Below are positions 4,337-35,494 of a stretch of 64,000 bases of DNA, one piece after another. This DNA is from Gluconobacter vitians. Its GTDB lineage: Bacteria; Pseudomonadota; Alphaproteobacteria; Acetobacterales; Acetobacteraceae. The position numbers and the translations under genes are program-made. The stretch lies in contig NZ_JABCQG010000014.1 of assembly GCF_015244565.1 (NCBI RefSeq), forward strand, positions 1 through 64,000, written 5' to 3'. The notes beneath the pieces were generated by a model, which worked only from the letters and a program-made list of their open reading frames with translations, ran no database searches and was not told the DNA's origin. Position 1 is the first letter of the stretch; the number at the start of each line of letters is the position of its first letter.

Positions 4337-7300
4337 TCAGGCGAACTGCGCGGCAGTCTCGACTGTGCTGTCTGCGAGATACGGGCCAGCGGCACGGATC
4401 TCGATGGAGAGCAGGGCCAGGCTGTCCTGATCACGCTCACCGAGCGTCAGCAGGCCATTGCCAGCCGTCCAGCGGCAGGTGGCGTCGTCAGCAACCTGCC
4501 AGCCATCCAGATCGGCCTGCGTCAGATGCGACGTGATGGAGCGCGTGGCGCGGGAGTCGTACAGGACGACATCGCCGACCAGAACGCCCAGTTCACGACG
4601 GTCATCAACGAACGGTCCAACCGTCTCGGACGGACGGGCCGTGCGGGAGACGACGCGGACTGCGCTCACCTCGGCAGGGATCATGAAGATCACCCGGCCA
4701 GCGGCCTCACGGCTCTGACGGATGACCGTACCGTTATCCGCCACGAGATGCAGGTCTGCATCCTGGGTCAGTTCGGCAGCAGCTTCACGGCTTTCCAGAC
4801 CGGCAGCGATGGCGCGGTCCGCGATCTGGCGGAACATCGGCTCCACCGTTGCGCGGTCCACGGTCAGGGCTGCGGCAGCGTCCTGTTCCCAGCTCTTCTG
4901 ACGGCCACCGAGGCTTGCGACTTCACCGTGCTGGGTGAAGCTGCGACGGTTGCCCGTGTCGAGATAGCTCTCCGTCAGCATGCCGTCCGCCATGATGACG
5001 GAGTGGTTTTCCGTCTCGATGTGGAAGTAGTCATAGACGCTGATGGAGCGGTCGTAGAATACCGAGCGGCCGTTGACGAGCATGCGGGTCGGGACGAAAC
5101 GGCCATCGATGAAGAGGCAGTGTTCCGGCGTGACCAGCAGGTCCTTGTTCGGCACGTTCGCGGCAACCGCATCCTTGAGGATACGCACCGGATGACCGGA
5201 GAGGTCAGCCGAGGCGCCACCCTGCGCACGGACGCGCTTGCTGCCGACCCAGGTGATCTTGCGGCTGACGGGGCTGCCATCGACCCAGGCCGTAACCTCG
5301 TCGCCGATGCGCAGGTCTTCGACGGCCGCGGTGCCGGAAGGCGTCGTAATCATCGTGCCGGGCAGGAAGCAGATCTCGCTGCCCTTGGCGAGCGTGACAA
5401 CCGTGCTGCCGTCGCGGTCTTCGGTCAGTTCGGCGTGGTAGTCGGAATAATCGCCTTCGAGGTCGATGGTGTAGCTCGCAGCGCCTTCCGTGACGACGAG
5501 GGTGTCACCGTTTATGGCAGCCTTGGCCACGCCGGCATACTGCAAGCTGTCGATGTCGATATGGCCGCCGACGGCAAGGACCGTCTCGTCGATCTCGCCA
5601 CCGGCATCGACTGTCAGCCAGGCACCGGAAGCCACAGTGGTTTCGTCAGCAACGCCGCCGGAGAGAACCGTTTCGAACGCGTTCTTCTGCAGGACGGTGT
5701 GATCGGTGCGACCGCCGTCATACTGGACGGAACCGCTGCCAACCGTCGTCTCGCTGGCCGTGCCGCCTGCGCTGATGAACTGCTGGCTGCCGCCTTCGAC
5801 CGTGGCACTGATGGAGGCGCCATACACGTAGTCCATGCCCTGCTGGTCGAGGACAGTGCCGACGGCCGTGCCGCCTGCGCTGATCGTCTCGTGAGCATGG
5901 CGCGTGATTGTGCTGCCGCTGGTGTAGCCGCCGGAGAGGACGTCGATCTTGCCGAGCGTCGTGGCGCTGTCACCGAAGGCCGATCCTGCCACCCATTCAT
6001 GACCGCGGATGACCGTTGCGCCGTTTTCAACGCCACCGGCCTGGACCGTCTCGAAAGCCTGGCCGCCGCTGAGAAGCGTGCCAACCGTCGAACCGCCGGA
6101 CTGAACGGTGATGTTACCCGTGGTTTCAGTCGTGGCGTTGGCAAAGCCACCGCTTGCGACGGTCATGGAGCCACCCGTAATGACGGTGCCGTCCGCAAGG
6201 CCGGAGTCCACGAGGGTACCGCCGCTGACGTTGGTCTGGATGGCCTGGCCGCTGGAGCTGACAACTTCGCTGCCGCTCTTCAGGTTGGTGCTGACGCTGC
6301 GTCCGCCGGCTTCGACCTTCTCCACACCACCGGTCACGTTGGTATTGTAGGTGCGACCATCGGACAGGACGTCTGCAACGCCGCCCTTGTTGACGGTTTC
6401 GCTGACGCCCGTGCCGCCGGCATTCACCGTCTCGGTGCCACCGTTATTGATGGTGGTGTCGAAGGAGAGACCATACTGGCCGACAACTTCGGCGCCGCCC
6501 GAGTTCAGAACCGTGTTCTGGGAGATGCCGTTGTCGTACTGGACTGCACCCGTCGACAGCGTGGCATTGTTGGCCAGGCCATCAGCGTAAACGATCTGGA
6601 GACCGTTGGTGGACAGCGTGGCGTTCTGCGAGATGCCGTCCACGAATTCCATGCCCTGATAGGACACGGTCGAACCCGAAGCGACAGCGCCTGCGCTGAC
6701 ATATTCATGTCCGTGCGTGCTGACAGCCGTGTTGGATGCGACGGCACCGGATGCGATGTGCAGTTCGCCAACGCCGGAGACCACGTCATTGACGGCCGTT
6801 CCGGCCAGCCATTCCTTGGCACCGTTGATGATGGAGGAGGCGGAGTCCACGGCGCCCGAAGCGACGCTCTGGAAAGCTGCACGGCCGTTGATGACAGCGC
6901 CACTCGTGACGCCACCGGTTTCGACGACGGACCAGCCGCTGGTGTTCTGGGTGCCGGTTGCGCTGCCACCGGCTTCAACCGTCAGGGTGCCGCCGTTGAT
7001 CGTGGTGTCGAGAGCCGAACCCGCGTCATAGAGCTTGCCGCCGGACAGGGTCGTGCTGCTGGCTACGCCATTGGCATAAAGCTGCTCGTAAGCGCCCGAG
7101 TTGACGGTCTCGTTGACGGACTTGCCGCTCAGCACAACGTCGAAGCCGCCGCTGTTGACGACCGTGTTGTAGGACGAGCCGCCCTTGCCGGTGTGATCAC
7201 CGGAGTCGCTGTACTCGACCATGCCGCCGCCATTGTTGATGACGGTGTTGGTCATCGTGCCGCCATCGACATAGACCGCGTAGTTGCCCTGCGAATTGAC

Positions 7301-7648
7301 GGTGACGTCTGTTGCGGAGCCATCGCCCTGGACGGTCATGCCGCCGTCATTCAGGACCACGCCCGAAGCCGTTGCGCCGTTGAGGACGATGAACTGGTCA
7401 TGGAACACGGTCGTGTCCACGGCAGACCCGCCACTGCGGACGATCACGGACTGCTTCTGGTCTTCGGTGTCTGCTGCACCGGAGATTGCGGTACCGGAAA
7501 TGACGCCGCCGCCGAGGACGTCAAGATTGCCCCCATCGGGAACGGTCGTGTCCACTGCAGTGCCACCAGAAGCGATGATCAGGGTATCGCCGCTGGAAAT
7601 TGTGGTTCCGCTGACCGTCTGGCCAGATGTCACTGTCTGTTCGCTCAT
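4337..7648 (-). CDS. Repeat-rich adhesin-like protein with C-terminal Hint domain
   Basis: The protein has 1103 residues. Residues 1 to about 735 are tandem imperfect repeats of roughly 19-20 residues with the pattern SGGxxxxTTVxxGGxxxVxxGG, as in AIDA-type/autotransporter passenger beta-helices. A Hint_2 (hedgehog/intein) domain follows at about residues 758-905. It has the nucleophile-position cysteine in CFLPGTMITT (C760), IGDEV, and the TxxH-type block TPEHCLF (about 839-845). A further beta-rich tail of about 200 residues completes it; there is no autotransporter barrel. The N-terminus (MSEQTVTSGQ) shows no Sec signal, so the export route is unclear. Hint domains self-cleave in characterised families; processing here is inferred. 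Start ATG at 7648 has GGAG 12 bases upstream. Confidence 0.85.
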   Translation of the reverse strand: MSEQTVTSGQTVSGTTISSGDTLIIASGGTAVDTTVPDGGNLDVLGGGVISGTAISGAADTEDQKQSVIVRSGGSAVDTTVFHDQFIVLNGATASGVVLNDGGMTVQGDGSATDVTVNSQGNYAVYVDGGTMTNTVINNGGGMVEYSDSGDHTGKGGSSYNTVVNSGGFDVVLSGKSVNETVNSGAYEQLYANGVASSTTLSGGKLYDAGSALDTTINGGTLTVEAGGSATGTQNTSGWSVVETGGVTSGAVINGRAAFQSVASGAVDSASSIINGAKEWLAGTAVNDVVSGVGELHIASGAVASNTAVSTHGHEYVSAGAVASGSTVSYQGMEFVDGISQNATLSTNGLQIVYADGLANNATLSTGAVQYDNGISQNTVLNSGGAEVVGQYGLSFDTTINNGGTETVNAGGTGVSETVNKGGVADVLSDGRTYNTNVTGGVEKVEAGGRSVSTNLKSGSEVVSSSGQAIQTNVSGGTLVDSGLADGTVITGGSMTVASGGFANATTETTGNITVQSGGSTVGTLLSGGQAFETVQAGGVENGATVIRGHEWVAGSAFGDSATTLGKIDVLSGGYTSGSTITRHAHETISAGGTAVGTVLDQQGMDYVYGASISATVEGGSQQFISAGGTASETTVGSGSVQYDGGRTDHTVLQKNAFETVLSGGVADETTVASGAWLTVDAGGEIDETVLAVGGHIDIDSLQYAGVAKAAINGDTLVVTEGAASYTIDLEGDYSDYHAELTEDRDGSTVVTLAKGSEICFLPGTMITTPSGTAAVEDLRIGDEVTAWVDGSPVSRKITWVGSKRVRAQGGASADLSGHPVRILKDAVAANVPNKDLLVTPEHCLFIDGRFVPTRMLVNGRSVFYDRSISVYDYFHIETENHSVIMADGMLTESYLDTGNRRSFTQHGEVASLGGRQKSWEQDAAAALTVDRATVEPMFRQIADRAIAAGLESREAAAELTQDADLHLVADNGTVIRQSREAAGRVIFMIPAEVSAVRVVSRTARPSETVGPFVDDRRELGVLVGDVVLYDSRATRSITSHLTQADLDGWQVADDATCRWTAGNGLLTLGERDQDSLALLSIEIRAAGPYLADSTVETAAQFA

Positions 7649-30283: not shown

Positions 30284-33200
30284 TCAGATGGCGGTCTGCA
30301 GGGCTGACCTGTCGGTCAGGGCCTGTTCGAGCGCCGTGGTTACGGCCTCGGTGGAGAAGGTCTTGCCGGCATACACCTGACCAGTTTTGACCAGTCCGGA
30401 CAGGTCAGCAGCGTTGTGCAGGGTTACGATCCGGTCAGCCAGATCAGCGGCTTCTGCCTGAACGAGTTCCTGAAGCTCACTGGTCAGCGCAAGGCCCTCG
30501 GCTGCGACTGGCGTCATGACGCAGGGCAGGCCGGAGGCGAGGCTTTCGATGACCTTGCCCTTGATGCCTGCGCCGAAGCGCAGAGGCGCGACACTCAGGC
30601 GATGGGCTGCGAGCACGGCACCCAGATCCTGGACATGTCCGAGAACCTGGATGCGGTCATCGGCGAGGGCCTGGATGCTCTCGGGCATGTCCGCGCCGAC
30701 CAGGGTGCAGCCGATGGTCGGATCGGCTGCCCACACCGCGGGCATGATCTTCTCCACCAGCCAGCGCGCGGCATCGGCATTCGGCGCGTGAGCGTAATTG
30801 CCGACGAATACCACGCCGCTGCGATCGACAGACGGACCTGTCTGGGCGGGAATGGCCCAGGGGACCACATGCACGCTGGCCTGTGGCAGATTCCTGCGAA
30901 GCTGTTCGGCTTCAGCTTCGGAATGCGTCAGGACGGCATCGGCCTGAAGAGCGGCCCTGTATTCCGCAACACGCATCTGGTTGGCCTGTGCCATCAGTTC
31001 CGGCCGGTCCTGCACCGCGGCCTGACGGGCCAGGCGCAGGAAGTGCAGGTCCGCCACGCTATAGAGCACGCGGGCCTTGCGCTGGTTGCGACGGACCAGT
31101 GCCATATAGCGCGTCGCGATGTCCTCGCGATGCAGATATACAACGTCAAAACTGTTGGCCTGACGCCGCAGCACGTCTTCGACAGACGCGAAGAACGGCT
31201 GACCAAGGACGTTCACATCCGGCAGCGAGTCCAGTGCAGAGACCCGGTCCATCTGGTCGGCAGCAACGAAGCTGACCTCGTAGCCGAGGGCTTCGAGCGC
31301 CGCCATGTGGGACAGGACAGCCTGCGATCCAGCATCGCGTTTTGCCATCGGATACTGGCCGTCAATGACCAGAGCGCGGCGACGCTGGATGGACGCCGGT
31401 GTGGCCATGCCACGGCGACGGCGTGCGGTTCCGACGGCAGCCTGGGTAGTGCCGCTTGTTGCTTCCGCATGGATCTGACGGAGTTTTTCCACCTGTGCGA
31501 GCAGGAAAGACAGGACCTGATCGCCCGTCTGATCTTCTGCTGCGGCGGCCACGGCACGCGCGATGCTGCGGGTCATGTCGGCGTCGAAAGCATCTGCCGC
31601 TTCGAGAACCTGCGGCTCGCCCAGAAGCGCGCCGTCAGAGCTGCGACGGATTTCCAGAACATGGCGTGTCATCGGAGACAGGCCGCCGGGTAGCAGGACG
31701 TCGAAGCCGCACAGCATCGGCCGTCCGGTACGCGCAACATCCGGCCGGCGACCATTGGCGACCACGGTGGCGAGGGGGACGCCATTATCAACAATCTGGA
31801 GGGTTACTGCCTCATCAGGCATGGTCGGAGTGCAGACCCATCCCGTGATCCGGTTGCGGGTGACGCTATCGACACAGCCATCCATCGGGACAACGGGAGT
31901 AGACGCCATGATGGCCTGACGCGGCTTCTCTTCGGCCTGATCCATCATCCACGGCACATGGCCGAGGGCTGCGTGATCATCGGTCCGGCGGACTTCCAGA
32001 ACATGGCGCTCCAGCGGAGAAAGACCGCCTGGAATGTCAAAACGGAACCCGCAGTCGCCGCCAAGATCAGCCCGGGACTGGTTGGCCAAGACTTCACCCA
32101 GCACCACGCCGTTATCGACGATCTGCAGGCGTACGGGCCGGTCGCTGCCCGGCACGCGGGCCCAGCCTCTGACATAGCTGTGGGTTGCGGCGTCCAGATA
32201 GCCTTCGAGCGGCGTAAATGTTGCGGTTTTCCGGCGGGCCGGGTTCAGGCGGCTGCGAATGGCTTCAAGCTGTGCTCCTTCCTCGACGCGCGGGGCGCAG
32301 TAGAGGGCTGCAACCGGGGTGGCATCCGGATAAAGGACGTCATATTCGCCGGCATTGTGGAACATGCCGCGGGAATGATCGTCCACGAAGGTTTCGGACT
32401 GCGTGCCATTAGCGATGATGATGTCGTGCTGTTCCAGTTCGATATGGAAATAGGCCACTTCATCCATGCGCTCGGCCTGCAGGATGGTGCTGCCATTCAC
32501 CAGCAGAACGGCCGGAACCAGAACGCCTTCCAGATACATGGCATGCAGCGGCGAGACCGACAGATCCTGATGCGGCAGGCCGTCTCCGAGCGATCCGCGA
32601 CGGAACACGACCGGCAGGATATCGCGGTTGCCGTTGGCGAAGGTGCCGGAATAGCTGCGACGGCCAATCCAGCGGATCGGGCGCAGGCCATTTGTGCCCG
32701 TCTGGACCAGATCGCCGATCTGAAGGCTCTCAACGGGTACTTCACCGCGATCTGTCAGGATCAGCGTGCCGCGGCAATAGCAGGGTGTACCTTCCGCGAG
32801 CAGCATCGTGCCGCCACTGCTGTCGGAGGCGAGGCTGAAGAAATCGGCGTCATAGGCGCCATCGAGGCCGATCGTATAGGTGCTGGTCCCGTTGGTGATC
32901 TGAAGGGTCGACGGATCCGTCAGGGTCGTGGTGGCATTGCTGGACCAGGCGAGTTCCGGCAGGTCGATTTTGGCGCCACTGGCAAGTGCGATGTTGTTGG
33001 CGGTGCTGCCGGAATACAGCGCCAGACGGCTGCCATTGCCGACCGAGATGTTCGAGGCTGTGCTGCCGCTATGGACCGCGGCCGTCTTGCCGGACGCCAG
33101 GGCGATGTCAGACAGGGCGGCGCCGTTCGTGGCGTTGTAATCCGTCATTGCGAGCAAGGTGACGGACGGATCGTGATCGGACTCGCCGGTCAGGGAGCCC

Positions 33201-35494
33201 GTGTTGACGTGGATCGTCTCGAACTTGCCCGCATTGGCGAAATCTGCGCTGCCGATCGTATGATCCAGCGATTCCGCATTGCCTTCGAAGATGTAGGTGT
33301 AGCGGTTGGACGGGTCTTCCGTGGTGCTCATGTCTGTCAGGCCGGCATTGGCATAGACCTGCTGGGCGTCGCTCCACTCCGTGTCGTTGAAATCGCCGAG
33401 GATGCCGACTTTTGCTGTCGGGTCACTGGTCAGCAGGCCGTTAACATAGTTCGTGATGTACTGCGCCTGCGCGATGCGGTTGTTGACCGTATCCGTCGTA
33501 CCGCCATGGTTTACGGGCGGCTGGGTTGCGCCATAAAGCTCGCTGCTGCCAGCCTGCGAGGACAGATGCACGTTGACGAGTGTGACCGTCTGGCCGTTGA
33601 ACTCGAACGTGCCGACCAGAGGCAGGCGGGTGTTCTTGAACGTACCGCTGGCCAGTTCCTCGTCACCGATGGTCGTGACGGGCGCGGCGAGGCTGACGCG
33701 CTCGGGGTTGTAGAGGAAGACGCTGCGGATATTACCGCCCGAAACACCGCCCGAAGCGTTGTTGGTCGGGTCCACCTCGGCCCAGGAATAGGTCGGGCCG
33801 CCCGCATCCACGATGGCTTTGACGATGGCCGCGAGGTTCTGCGATGCGCTGACGGTGCCGTCATTGGTCGTGCCGCTGTCGTCCTGGACTTCCTGAAGCG
33901 CCAGCACGTCGGGGCTGTCGAGATTGCCGGTAATGATCTGCGCAAGCTGCGTCAGGCGGTCGGCATTTGCCGGGTCAAGCGCGTTGAAATTCTCGATGTT
34001 GTAGTCGCTGACCAGCAGGTTCTGGTCGTCCTTGTGCAGGGACGTGACCGGGGCTGGCGTGTCGGTATGCAGGACCGTGACCTGCGTGGTCGGGACCAGT
34101 TCATAGACGCCGTTGTAATAAGTCAGAACGCCCGTGATGTCGCCCAGCTTGTCTCCGACTTCCGCGCTGATGGCAGAGCCCGGTGTGACGCCACTGTCGT
34201 AATAAAGCTCGACCCGCTGCGTATTAACGCTGTTGGCCGTTTCTTGAAGAGCGCCGGTCGGCGTCAGCAGTCCATCACCGCCATCGGGCACGACCCAGGT
34301 CGCGTTCGAGGCTGTGGCGCCGACGGCCACGGCATCATGGATCGTAATGACCTGCCCGATCAGGTTGCGGTAGAAATCGAGCGCATTGGTATCGGGGCTG
34401 AGAGAGGCCGTGCTCGTATTCAGGTTAATTGCCTGCGTCAGGTCCCCGAGATAGGACGCGGCCGGAACTGTCAGGCCACCCTGACCGACCACGACAGGCG
34501 TGGTGTTCACATAAGCCGCGCCGGTATCGGTATAGGAGACGAGGTTGATTTCCGGGAGGGTGAGGGATTTGCTCCAGGATGTGCCGGAATAGTTCGTGAC
34601 GGTGCCGGTAACGGAAACGGTCTCGCCTACGGTCGGAAGTGTCGCCGTCTTGCCCGCATAGATGAAGATGCCCGAGCTGCCGACCGTGTTCTTGTCAGGG
34701 TTGGACTGCTGGATCCAGAAACCGAGGCTGCCATTCGTGTCCACGGCGGTCACGACGCCCGTGGTCATGACGGAAGCATTGGCATACGGGCTGTAATAGC
34801 CGGTGCCATTGATCTGCTGGATCGTCAGGTCCTGCGGGGTTGTCGTGTCACTACCCGTGCCCGAACCTCCGGTATCGCTGCCTGAACCGCCAGTGTCGCC
34901 GCCCGTGCTTCCGCCAGAGGATGTGTCGTCATTGGCCGCGCCCGGCGTTGCCAGAACCGTGCCTGCCGCGGCAACGGTGCCATAGCCGTCAATCCCGGCG
35001 AGGGACGGGTCATCCGCAACCCAGTCCAAGGTGCTGTCCGTATCCGTGCCGTCGGGGATGCGCGAAGCGCCGTCGATGATCGAACCCGTCAGGACAGGCG
35101 CGCCGGCATAGGTCGGATCGCCCTTGCCACCATCGGAGACAGCAATCGTATCCCCGATTTCGGACCAGGGAGTGGACGTGAAAGTCCCGGCATTGGCCGT
35201 GTCGAGGTCATCGCCAGCCTTGCCGGTGAAATCCTTGACGAGAAGGACGGTCTGCGTGCCGTTCTGCAGGGCATTCGTCTGAAAAGGCGTGACCCAGTAG
35301 CCGTCGCTGTTCGTGACGCCGACTGTAAAAACATTGTCGATCTTGCCGGCCGCGGTGCCGTCACCATCGACGACGATCAGGGACCAGGCGCTGTAATCGG
35401 TGTCGGCATCGCCCTTTACTTCAATAAATTCATCGGGATCACCAGATACACTTGGATTGAACATGAATTCATTAATAAGCAATTTCGACGTCAT
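30284..35494 (-). CDS. Giant lamin-tail/nuclease/Hint/glycosyltransferase fusion protein
   Basis: The 1736-residue protein has several joined domains. About 1-190: lamin-tail domain (LLINEFMFNPSVSGDPDEFI). 193-221: Gly/Ser/Asp linker. About 222-330: OB-fold as in ExeM-type nucleases. About 490-780: endonuclease/exonuclease/phosphatase domain with all core motifs (DYNIENF, LALQEVQD, NVHLSS, GDFND, SDHDP). About 790-850: short adhesin-type repeats. About 903-1075: Hint_2 domain with CYCRGT (C905) and SPLHAMY. About 1095-1180 and 1202-1290: two related beta modules, each with LQIVDNGV and GGLSPxxRHVLEIRR. About 1370-1720: GT4-like glycosyltransferase (VVFVGNYAHAPNADAARWL, FGAGIKGKVIESLASGLP). 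No Sec signal is visible. The nuclease part predicts extracellular DNase activity; the linkage to a glycosyltransferase is unexpected. No internal stop or frameshift. Confidence 0.85.
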   Translation of the reverse strand: MTSKLLINEFMFNPSVSGDPDEFIEVKGDADTDYSAWSLIVVDGDGTAAGKIDNVFTVGVTNSDGYWVTPFQTNALQNGTQTVLLVKDFTGKAGDDLDTANAGTFTSTPWSEIGDTIAVSDGGKGDPTYAGAPVLTGSIIDGASRIPDGTDTDSTLDWVADDPSLAGIDGYGTVAAAGTVLATPGAANDDTSSGGSTGGDTGGSGSDTGGSGTGSDTTTPQDLTIQQINGTGYYSPYANASVMTTGVVTAVDTNGSLGFWIQQSNPDKNTVGSSGIFIYAGKTATLPTVGETVSVTGTVTNYSGTSWSKSLTLPEINLVSYTDTGAAYVNTTPVVVGQGGLTVPAASYLGDLTQAINLNTSTASLSPDTNALDFYRNLIGQVITIHDAVAVGATASNATWVVPDGGDGLLTPTGALQETANSVNTQRVELYYDSGVTPGSAISAEVGDKLGDITGVLTYYNGVYELVPTTQVTVLHTDTPAPVTSLHKDDQNLLVSDYNIENFNALDPANADRLTQLAQIITGNLDSPDVLALQEVQDDSGTTNDGTVSASQNLAAIVKAIVDAGGPTYSWAEVDPTNNASGGVSGGNIRSVFLYNPERVSLAAPVTTIGDEELASGTFKNTRLPLVGTFEFNGQTVTLVNVHLSSQAGSSELYGATQPPVNHGGTTDTVNNRIAQAQYITNYVNGLLTSDPTAKVGILGDFNDTEWSDAQQVYANAGLTDMSTTEDPSNRYTYIFEGNAESLDHTIGSADFANAGKFETIHVNTGSLTGESDHDPSVTLLAMTDYNATNGAALSDIALASGKTAAVHSGSTASNISVGNGSRLALYSGSTANNIALASGAKIDLPELAWSSNATTTLTDPSTLQITNGTSTYTIGLDGAYDADFFSLASDSSGGTMLLAEGTPCYCRGTLILTDRGEVPVESLQIGDLVQTGTNGLRPIRWIGRRSYSGTFANGNRDILPVVFRRGSLGDGLPHQDLSVSPLHAMYLEGVLVPAVLLVNGSTILQAERMDEVAYFHIELEQHDIIIANGTQSETFVDDHSRGMFHNAGEYDVLYPDATPVAALYCAPRVEEGAQLEAIRSRLNPARRKTATFTPLEGYLDAATHSYVRGWARVPGSDRPVRLQIVDNGVVLGEVLANQSRADLGGDCGFRFDIPGGLSPLERHVLEVRRTDDHAALGHVPWMMDQAEEKPRQAIMASTPVVPMDGCVDSVTRNRITGWVCTPTMPDEAVTLQIVDNGVPLATVVANGRRPDVARTGRPMLCGFDVLLPGGLSPMTRHVLEIRRSSDGALLGEPQVLEAADAFDADMTRSIARAVAAAAEDQTGDQVLSFLLAQVEKLRQIHAEATSGTTQAAVGTARRRRGMATPASIQRRRALVIDGQYPMAKRDAGSQAVLSHMAALEALGYEVSFVAADQMDRVSALDSLPDVNVLGQPFFASVEDVLRRQANSFDVVYLHREDIATRYMALVRRNQRKARVLYSVADLHFLRLARQAAVQDRPELMAQANQMRVAEYRAALQADAVLTHSEAEAEQLRRNLPQASVHVVPWAIPAQTGPSVDRSGVVFVGNYAHAPNADAARWLVEKIMPAVWAADPTIGCTLVGADMPESIQALADDRIQVLGHVQDLGAVLAAHRLSVAPLRFGAGIKGKVIESLASGLPCVMTPVAAEGLALTSELQELVQAEAADLADRIVTLHNAADLSGLVKTGQVYAGKTFSTEAVTTALEQALTDRSALQTAI

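Follow-up and report, generated by a model that had tools for sequence, protein, structure and literature searches.

A Hint domain joins a nuclease to a glycosyltransferase in Gluconobacter vitians and belongs to a module with varied passengers in Acetobacteraceae

Here, we describe a gene of Gluconobacter vitians that encodes an ExeM/NucH-like nuclease, a Hint_2 domain and a GT4-like glycosyltransferase in one frame, and we found that its Hint-repeat-repeat-glycosyltransferase half is a module of Acetobacteraceae that occurs with varied passengers. Hint domains free toxins, splice, and add cholesterol in Hedgehog. In the protein studied here, a cut at Cys905 would probably part the passenger from the glycosyltransferase, as judged from the residues that are kept. 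Among the papers listed by our literature search, which was thin in subscription journals, none described a protein combining Hint and glycosyltransferase in Gluconobacter or Acetobacteraceae, or in adhesin or type I contexts.

Results

Architecture of the fusion protein

The window, i.e., the whole 64,000-nt stretch that was analysed, carries the gene at positions 30284-35494 of the minus strand as a single intact frame of 1736 residues starting with ATG, according to the ORF and translation check. A sequence-only reading of the same DNA had given exactly these coordinates and an uninterrupted frame, with no strand, and had proposed a Hint domain between nuclease and glycosyltransferase; matches to Pfam, NCBIfam and solved chains bear out its domains and their order, which runs from a lamin-tail-like domain through the nuclease, a short stretch, the Hint_2 domain and two repeats to the glycosyltransferase (Table 1). 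The two ~97-residue repeats in the Hint-glycosyltransferase interval and the strand-loop-strand-like stretch before the Hint are parts that this reading did not contain. Downstream of the gene lie tRNA-Tyr and an RlmB-like methyltransferase frame, and no small immunity-type gene was seen in the window before them. The neighbouring genes stand beside the fusion in six of 18 loci checked and were not found there in the other 12.

Table 1 Features of the fusion gene, with positions in the window
Feature	Residues	Positions	Strand	Basis or remark
Lamin-tail-like domain	1-190	34925..35494	-	Profile comparison with relatives' N-termini (L127-L129)
Gly/Ser/Thr linker	191-221	34832..34924	-	Length differs among species
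ExeM/NucH-like nuclease	222-780	33155..34831	-	Exo_endo_phos, NCBIfam, 9sf9/9sf8, invariant motif residues
Strand-loop-strand-like stretch	785-903	32786..33142	-	Weak profile matches to other passengers
Hint_2 domain	904-1039	32378..32785	-	PF13403, 154 bits; Foldseek to BIL2 and inteins
Proposed nucleophile; predicted cleavage just before	Cys905	32780..32782	-	Invariant, 61/61 and 14/14
Tail special to this Hint type	1040-1093	32216..32377	-	Invariant Asn1047 at 32354-32356; split pairs break at the tail's end
Repeat 1, all-beta	1094-1190	31925..32215	-	No Pfam match
Repeat 2	1200-1300	31595..31897	-	Repeat alignment, model
GT4-like glycosyltransferase	1371-1736	30287..31384	-	PF13692 above cut-off, TIGR03087 below cut-off, Foldseek to GT4 enzymes

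The nuclease passenger

Exo_endo_phos of Pfam matches residues 498-774 with 36 bits (cut-off 24.5), and the NCBIfam ExeM/NucH model (NF033681) matches residues 430-764 with an E-value of 2.7e-41, its 142 bits lying below the family cut-off of 300. The solved nuclease chains 9sf9 and 9sf8 match residues 225-779 (E 2.6e-63 and 3.8e-63). Eleven residues within the nuclease motifs (N499, E501, E535, R590, H643, D701, N703, D744, H745, D773 and H774) are invariant in 11 of 11 aligned orthologs, which agrees with the earlier claim that the core motifs are intact, and DNase activity is predicted for this part of the protein.

The lamin tail, also proposed from the letters, is upheld by comparison with relatives. 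In the fusion protein itself, no Pfam match to it was found up to E = 1. When its front was compared by profile with that of three relatives (L127-L129), the probability was 96.8% and the E-value 2.3e-10 over residues 1-88; two of these relatives match PF00932, both below its cut-off. Within the Gly/Ser linker, a 21-base tandem repeat lies at window positions 34858-34905, and such a repeat was also noted for two other loci (L018, L051).

The protein shares this lamin-tail-like front and the nuclease core with its motif residues with the ExeM/NucH nucleases, such as Shewanella ExeM and the 9sf9/9sf8 chains. It differs from them in its score below the NCBIfam cut-off, in having no visible signal peptide, and in carrying the Hint domain and the glycosyltransferase where ExeM has a C-terminal sorting element, an anchor with a processing site (PMC6085458). 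Between nuclease and Hint, a profile of residues 785-903 gives weak matches of 15-62 bits to passengers that are not of the nuclease family, and TIGR04415 and AIDA gave no match on the fusion protein's own pre-Hint stretch.

Conservation of the fusion

The genome search covered 41 genomes, namely the own genome, 24 of the same genus and 16 of the same class. In 10 of the 24 other Gluconobacter genomes, the whole protein lies in one open frame of 1741-1769 residues; in one more (G002, locus L051), a break of the frame falls in the Gly/Ser linker that connects lamin tail and nuclease; and the remaining 13 are without the nuclease fusion and gave matches only to other Hint or glycosyltransferase proteins. 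The sequence-only reading had considered that the gene might be a misassembly, with related genomes always splitting it before the glycosyltransferase; ten congeners keep it in one frame and the single break is elsewhere.

When named genomes were scanned with the Hint-transferase half as query, 46 loci were obtained, with Gluconobacter and Acetobacter at the head of the list; this set may share species with the 24 congeners. The nuclease is the passenger in 15 of the 46, and 13 of these 15, ten from Gluconobacter and three from Acetobacter, encode every part in a single frame. The other two are the locus broken in the linker and that of Asaia astilbis (L069), where the transferase lies in another, overlapping frame; this break may be a sequencing error in the draft. 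Orthologs of 77-92% identity have the parts in the same order. Compared with four Gluconobacter orthologs by the Nei-Gojobori method, each of the seven segments gave a dN/dS of 0.02-0.35, which indicates purifying selection on every module; the values for G. cerinus are rough, as most of its dS approach or exceed 1.

The Hint domain

Hint_2 (PF13403) exceeds its cut-off of 28.4 bits by far. We split the Hints into two types by how well they score against a profile of the nuclease fusions, with >130 bits for the fusion type and 30-130 bits for the other, the fragment L079 falling in the low group; repeats (L001-L008, L010-L023, L037, L038, L048, L049) were left out of the residue counts, and identical rows were collapsed. 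C905, H984, H1023, E1034 and N1047 are invariant in 61 of 61 Hints of the fusion protein's type. The same organisms have another Hint_2 type, in which the first Cys is kept in 14 of 14 and the block-B His in 13 of 14, the one miss being a gap. The two types differ at N1047, which is present in 61/61 and 2/14, respectively; H1046 is found in 53 of the 61. In an alignment of 49 divergent Hints, every sequence has C905, G909, T910, H984, E1034 and N1047, and conservation in the segment that follows the Hint matches that of the domain itself. We take C905 and H984 to be the first Cys and block-B His of the Hint superfamily. On this alignment, they are the residues that N-terminal cleavage would need.

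The modelled Hint domain (mean pLDDT 87.7) resembles intein-like domains: Foldseek placed BIL2 of Tetrahymena first, and all 17 matches with E ≤ 0.001 were inteins or intein-like domains. BIL2 splices via its first Cys and block-B His (PMC8616854). In the comparison of the Hint profile with the PDB, the best rows were designed Pizza proteins at E ~0.01, which are spurious, and there were weak matches to PI-SceI (E 0.01) and the BIL domain 2lwy (E 0.014) in which Cys905 is aligned with their first-Cys region.

The C-terminal end of the domain is different. A-type bacterial intein-like domains have a conserved His-Asn there (PMC7765530). The block F alignment places this canonical intein pair at E1034-T1035, where the Glu is followed by Thr or Ser, and Asn1047 lies 12 residues past Thr/Ser1035; hhalign on this end was not significant (pairwise E 0.047-0.059, probability ~1%). 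A second cut at Asn1047, in the manner of A-type domains, would fit the spacing, as Cys905 to Asn1047 spans 143 residues and the top Foldseek target carries C1A-N143A, but the block alignment sets the canonical end at 1034-1035. In the model, Asn1047 may serve in C-terminal cleavage, shifted from its usual place by an insertion, or may equally cap the helix at 1048-1054. The fusion Hint shares with the BIL domains and the Hedgehog Hint the intein-like fold of its model, the first Cys and the block-B His, while it differs in having Glu1034-Thr/Ser1035 at the place of the final His-Asn and in being flanked by the repeats and the glycosyltransferase. PF14890 inteins were found in 12 of 150 genomes of the phylum and not in the window's genome.

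The Hint-transferase half is a module with varied passengers

The unusual domain order pointed out by the sequence-only reading is real, but it is not unique to this protein, as the nuclease is one passenger among several on the module. Across the 46 named loci, Hint and transferase share one frame in 33, the transferase is in a neighbouring frame in 10, and three have none or repeats only; three of the 33 (L081, L082, L092) show weak transferase matches of 45-53 bits. For at least three fusion-type Hints (L091, L094 and the second Hint of L086), no transferase was found in the stretch examined. When passengers were grouped by BLAST, 14 of 24 groups included at least one Hint with a transferase. 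AIDA (PF16168) or TIGR04415 repeats were found in 12 of 13 representative non-nuclease proteins with a fusion-type Hint, six of them over the Pfam cut-off, and the scan of the thirteenth (L095) found neither. NCBI named TIGR04415 after O-heptosylated repeats.

Of the 10 Hint_2 frames in the window's genome, five belong to the fusion type, four of them with a transferase in the same frame or next to it. Five Hint_2 frames account for all 18 TIGR04415 matches in this genome. A second Hint_2 gene of the window (4337-7648, minus strand, 1103 residues) contains twelve AIDA/TIGR04415-type repeats and a Hint of the other type, with no FHN and no transferase. A paralog on contig C24 (L043) stops within repeat 2, with no transferase in the 10 kb examined. 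On C36, another runs fused into the contig end, and C37 starts with a transferase piece (L041/L042). In Acetobacter persici (L079), the Hint domain extends across two frames beside an intact transferase frame.

In a tree of 56 Hint-transferase pairs, 35 pairs are fused and 21 are split, with at least six changes of state, four of which are forced by well supported branches; one change depends on the Asaia draft. None of 500 shuffles gave so few changes, so the fused or split state is also clustered on the tree. The tree left out L021, L022, L048 and L049, which are repeats of L070/L071, and loci without a transferase partner; L010-L020 were not entered, and L023 equals L050, hence 55 of the 56 rows differ. 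Nine loci (L005, L024-L028, L030-L032) are split at residues ~1082-1097, just past the tail of the Hint, five (L040, L083, L085, L087, L088) are split inside the repeats, and three (L074, L075, L089) have extra repeats on both sides of the split. In the five Gluconobacter genomes split inside the repeats, including the window's own (contig C31, L040:247-5398), the Hint frame ends within repeat 1 and the transferase, in a different reading frame, overlaps it, reflecting either a shared old frameshift or a programmed one. The protein of Acetobacter senegalensis (L080) is closer to Gluconobacter than that of A. fallax in the nuclease (79% vs 74%) and more distant in the transferase (54% vs 61%), as if it were a mosaic with exchanged halves.

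The repeats and the glycosyltransferase

Glyco_trans_1_4 (PF13692) matches residues 1560-1693 with 72 bits (cut-off 27), Glyco_trans_4_4 matches residues 1391-1545 just below its cut-off (28.1 vs 29.7 bits), and TIGR03087 (stp1) reaches 97 bits, below its cut-off of 317. The model of the transferase half (mean pLDDT 88.0) has two all-beta repeats and a GT-B fold. Foldseek returned 315 matches with E ≤ 0.001 for the glycosyltransferase model, and among the matches listed, GT4 enzymes such as MshA, BshA and WaaG come first; at the sequence level, 6kih was the only solved structure matched at E ≤ 1e-5. EX7E is the canonical GT4 motif. Its first Glu is absent here, its second, Glu1650, is present and replaced by Asp in two relatives (L021, L022), and Glu1666 is invariant. 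We saw neither a signal peptide nor a membrane segment for the glycosyltransferase, which leaves the suggestion of a surface enzyme, made from the letters alone, without support and makes a cytoplasmic role the more likely one.

The beta repeats (window 31595-32215) have the consensus G-x-D ... GWA ... DNG ... GGLSP-x-x-RH-x-x-EVRR. No Pfam family matched either of them, and they may be a new domain, perhaps a sugar-binding one.

Export

No obvious N-terminal signal peptide was found in a crude scan without a positive control, the best 12-residue mean hydropathy in the first 45 residues being 0.91. The same crude scan found none in 59 proteins of the fusion type, one of which, with a Val/Ser/Gly repeat, reached a mean hydropathy of 2.0.

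Nuclease relatives in other Acetobacteraceae differ in what stands in place of the C-terminal half: L128 and L129 have RTX repeats (PF00353), L122-L124 have another Hint_2 type with ~180 more residues, L125 and L126 continue with unassigned sequence, and L127 stops almost at once. We read this, from the sequences, as a likely exchange of the nuclease's C-terminal sorting module between lineages. The RTX-type relatives in Acetobacteraceae share with the fusion protein the lamin tail (PF00932 below cut-off), the nuclease and the lack of an obvious signal peptide, and they end in RTX repeats instead of Hint and glycosyltransferase. RTX repeats are a mark of type I secretion, and Pfam found none in the fusion protein. 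Since the repeats and the transferase occupy the extreme C-terminus, the place of a type I signal, export of the passenger would need prior cleavage or another route.

In the window's genome, genes for HlyD (above cut-off) and an HlyB-like ABC protein (below cut-off) lie side by side, TIGR01842 gave 64 matches with none over its cut-off, and the autotransporter barrel PF03797 had no match, the control matching in 2 of 14. On contig C6 (L105:765-9284), the HlyB-like and HlyD genes lie beside a TPR/Sel1-type protein and a 1007-residue protein with weak GT2-type matches, possibly an export system linked to a glycosyltransferase.

Discussion

We propose a working model in which the protein is a precursor with three working parts: the passenger, the Hint_2 domain, and the C-terminal repeats with the glycosyltransferase. 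The passenger (residues 1-903) is the nuclease with its lamin-tail-like front and would probably leave the cell without an N-terminal signal, e.g., by type I secretion. The repeats and the GT4-like enzyme would be a dedicated glycosyltransferase of the passenger class, acting on the passenger in the cytoplasm while both are one chain, or are made side by side from a gene pair. The Hint_2 domain would convert the peptide bond between Pro904 and Cys905 into a thioester, whose opening would release the passenger from the rest, and the transferase would stay behind. That this class of passenger is the target of the transferase is possible, at somewhat below an even chance; this target is taken from other passengers because TIGR04415 and AIDA do not match the fusion protein's own pre-Hint stretch. 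A comparable arrangement is that of AIDA-I/Aah and TibA/TibC, in which a repeat passenger adjoins a dedicated transferase and is glycosylated by this partner enzyme (PMC4358343). Here, the enzyme is GT4-like and not of the TibC type, it is fused via a Hint, and the genome shows no autotransporter barrel. The absent first Glu of EX7E, the fusion-type Hints without a transferase, and the 13 of 24 congeners without the nuclease fusion count against the model. Taken as a whole, with the cut, the sugar target and the cytoplasmic timing combined, we infer it only tentatively, as close to evenly balanced but short of it.

Alternatively, the Hint might be a non-cutting structural link in a stable bifunctional enzyme of the surface or the cytoplasm. 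Most pairs do stay fused (35/56), and conservation is equally strong in the Hint and past it. On the other hand, Cys905 and His984 are invariant in 61 of 61, and 21 of the 56 pairs work as two chains, so that a single chain is not required; we consider such a link unlikely. Equally unlikely in our view is a transferase that serves exopolysaccharide or capsule synthesis, shares only regulation and stoichiometry with the passenger, and is parted from it by the Hint. The nearest NCBIfam models are of the polysaccharide type (TIGR03087, and weakly EpsE) and single GT relatives of ~400 residues exist elsewhere in the genus, but the transferase goes together with Hint/AIDA-type passengers, either fused to them or encoded right beside them.

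It is highly improbable that the Cys905 thioester is resolved by a sugar hydroxyl and not by water, in a glycan ligation of the Hedgehog kind. The repeats and the glycosyltransferase, at the position of Hedgehog's sterol-binding region, would bring the hydroxyl, and the nuclease or adhesin would be joined through its C-terminus to a glycan that the gene itself makes or primes, an attachment that would anchor the protein in the surface polysaccharide. Consistent with this, the repeats and transferase always follow the Hint in the module, and unrelated passengers share this one half; inteins' canonical final Asn is apparently missing, so an outside nucleophile would be needed.

Slightly less probable still is a protein akin to polymorphic toxins, with the Hint setting free a glycosyltransferase effector at the C-terminus. 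In such toxins, HINT lies just before the C-terminal toxin domain (PMC3482391), and this placement just ahead of a C-terminal enzyme is shared here. The polymorphism is reversed, however, with a constant C-terminal half and a variable N-terminal part, and no immunity gene was seen before the downstream tRNA-Tyr and RlmB-like frame; we rejected this as the main reading on the constant C-terminus. Finally, a misassembly or chance read-through of two genes can practically be dismissed because the one-frame fusion recurs in 10/24 congeners and in 13/46 named loci from two genera, and dN/dS is low to either side of the junction, even though the halves are separate adjacent genes in nine related loci.

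In summary, the Hint-transferase half looks like a reusable processing and sugar-adding module. If the working model is true, a Hint linking a glycosyltransferase to passengers that are secreted or sit at the surface, repeatedly fused and split, would be a new use of this fold, and if the passenger were ligated to a glycan, a second chemistry of the Hedgehog kind. The naturally split and fused versions make the test simple. For acetic acid bacteria, the module would then make protein glycosylation and signal-less export accessible to genetics.
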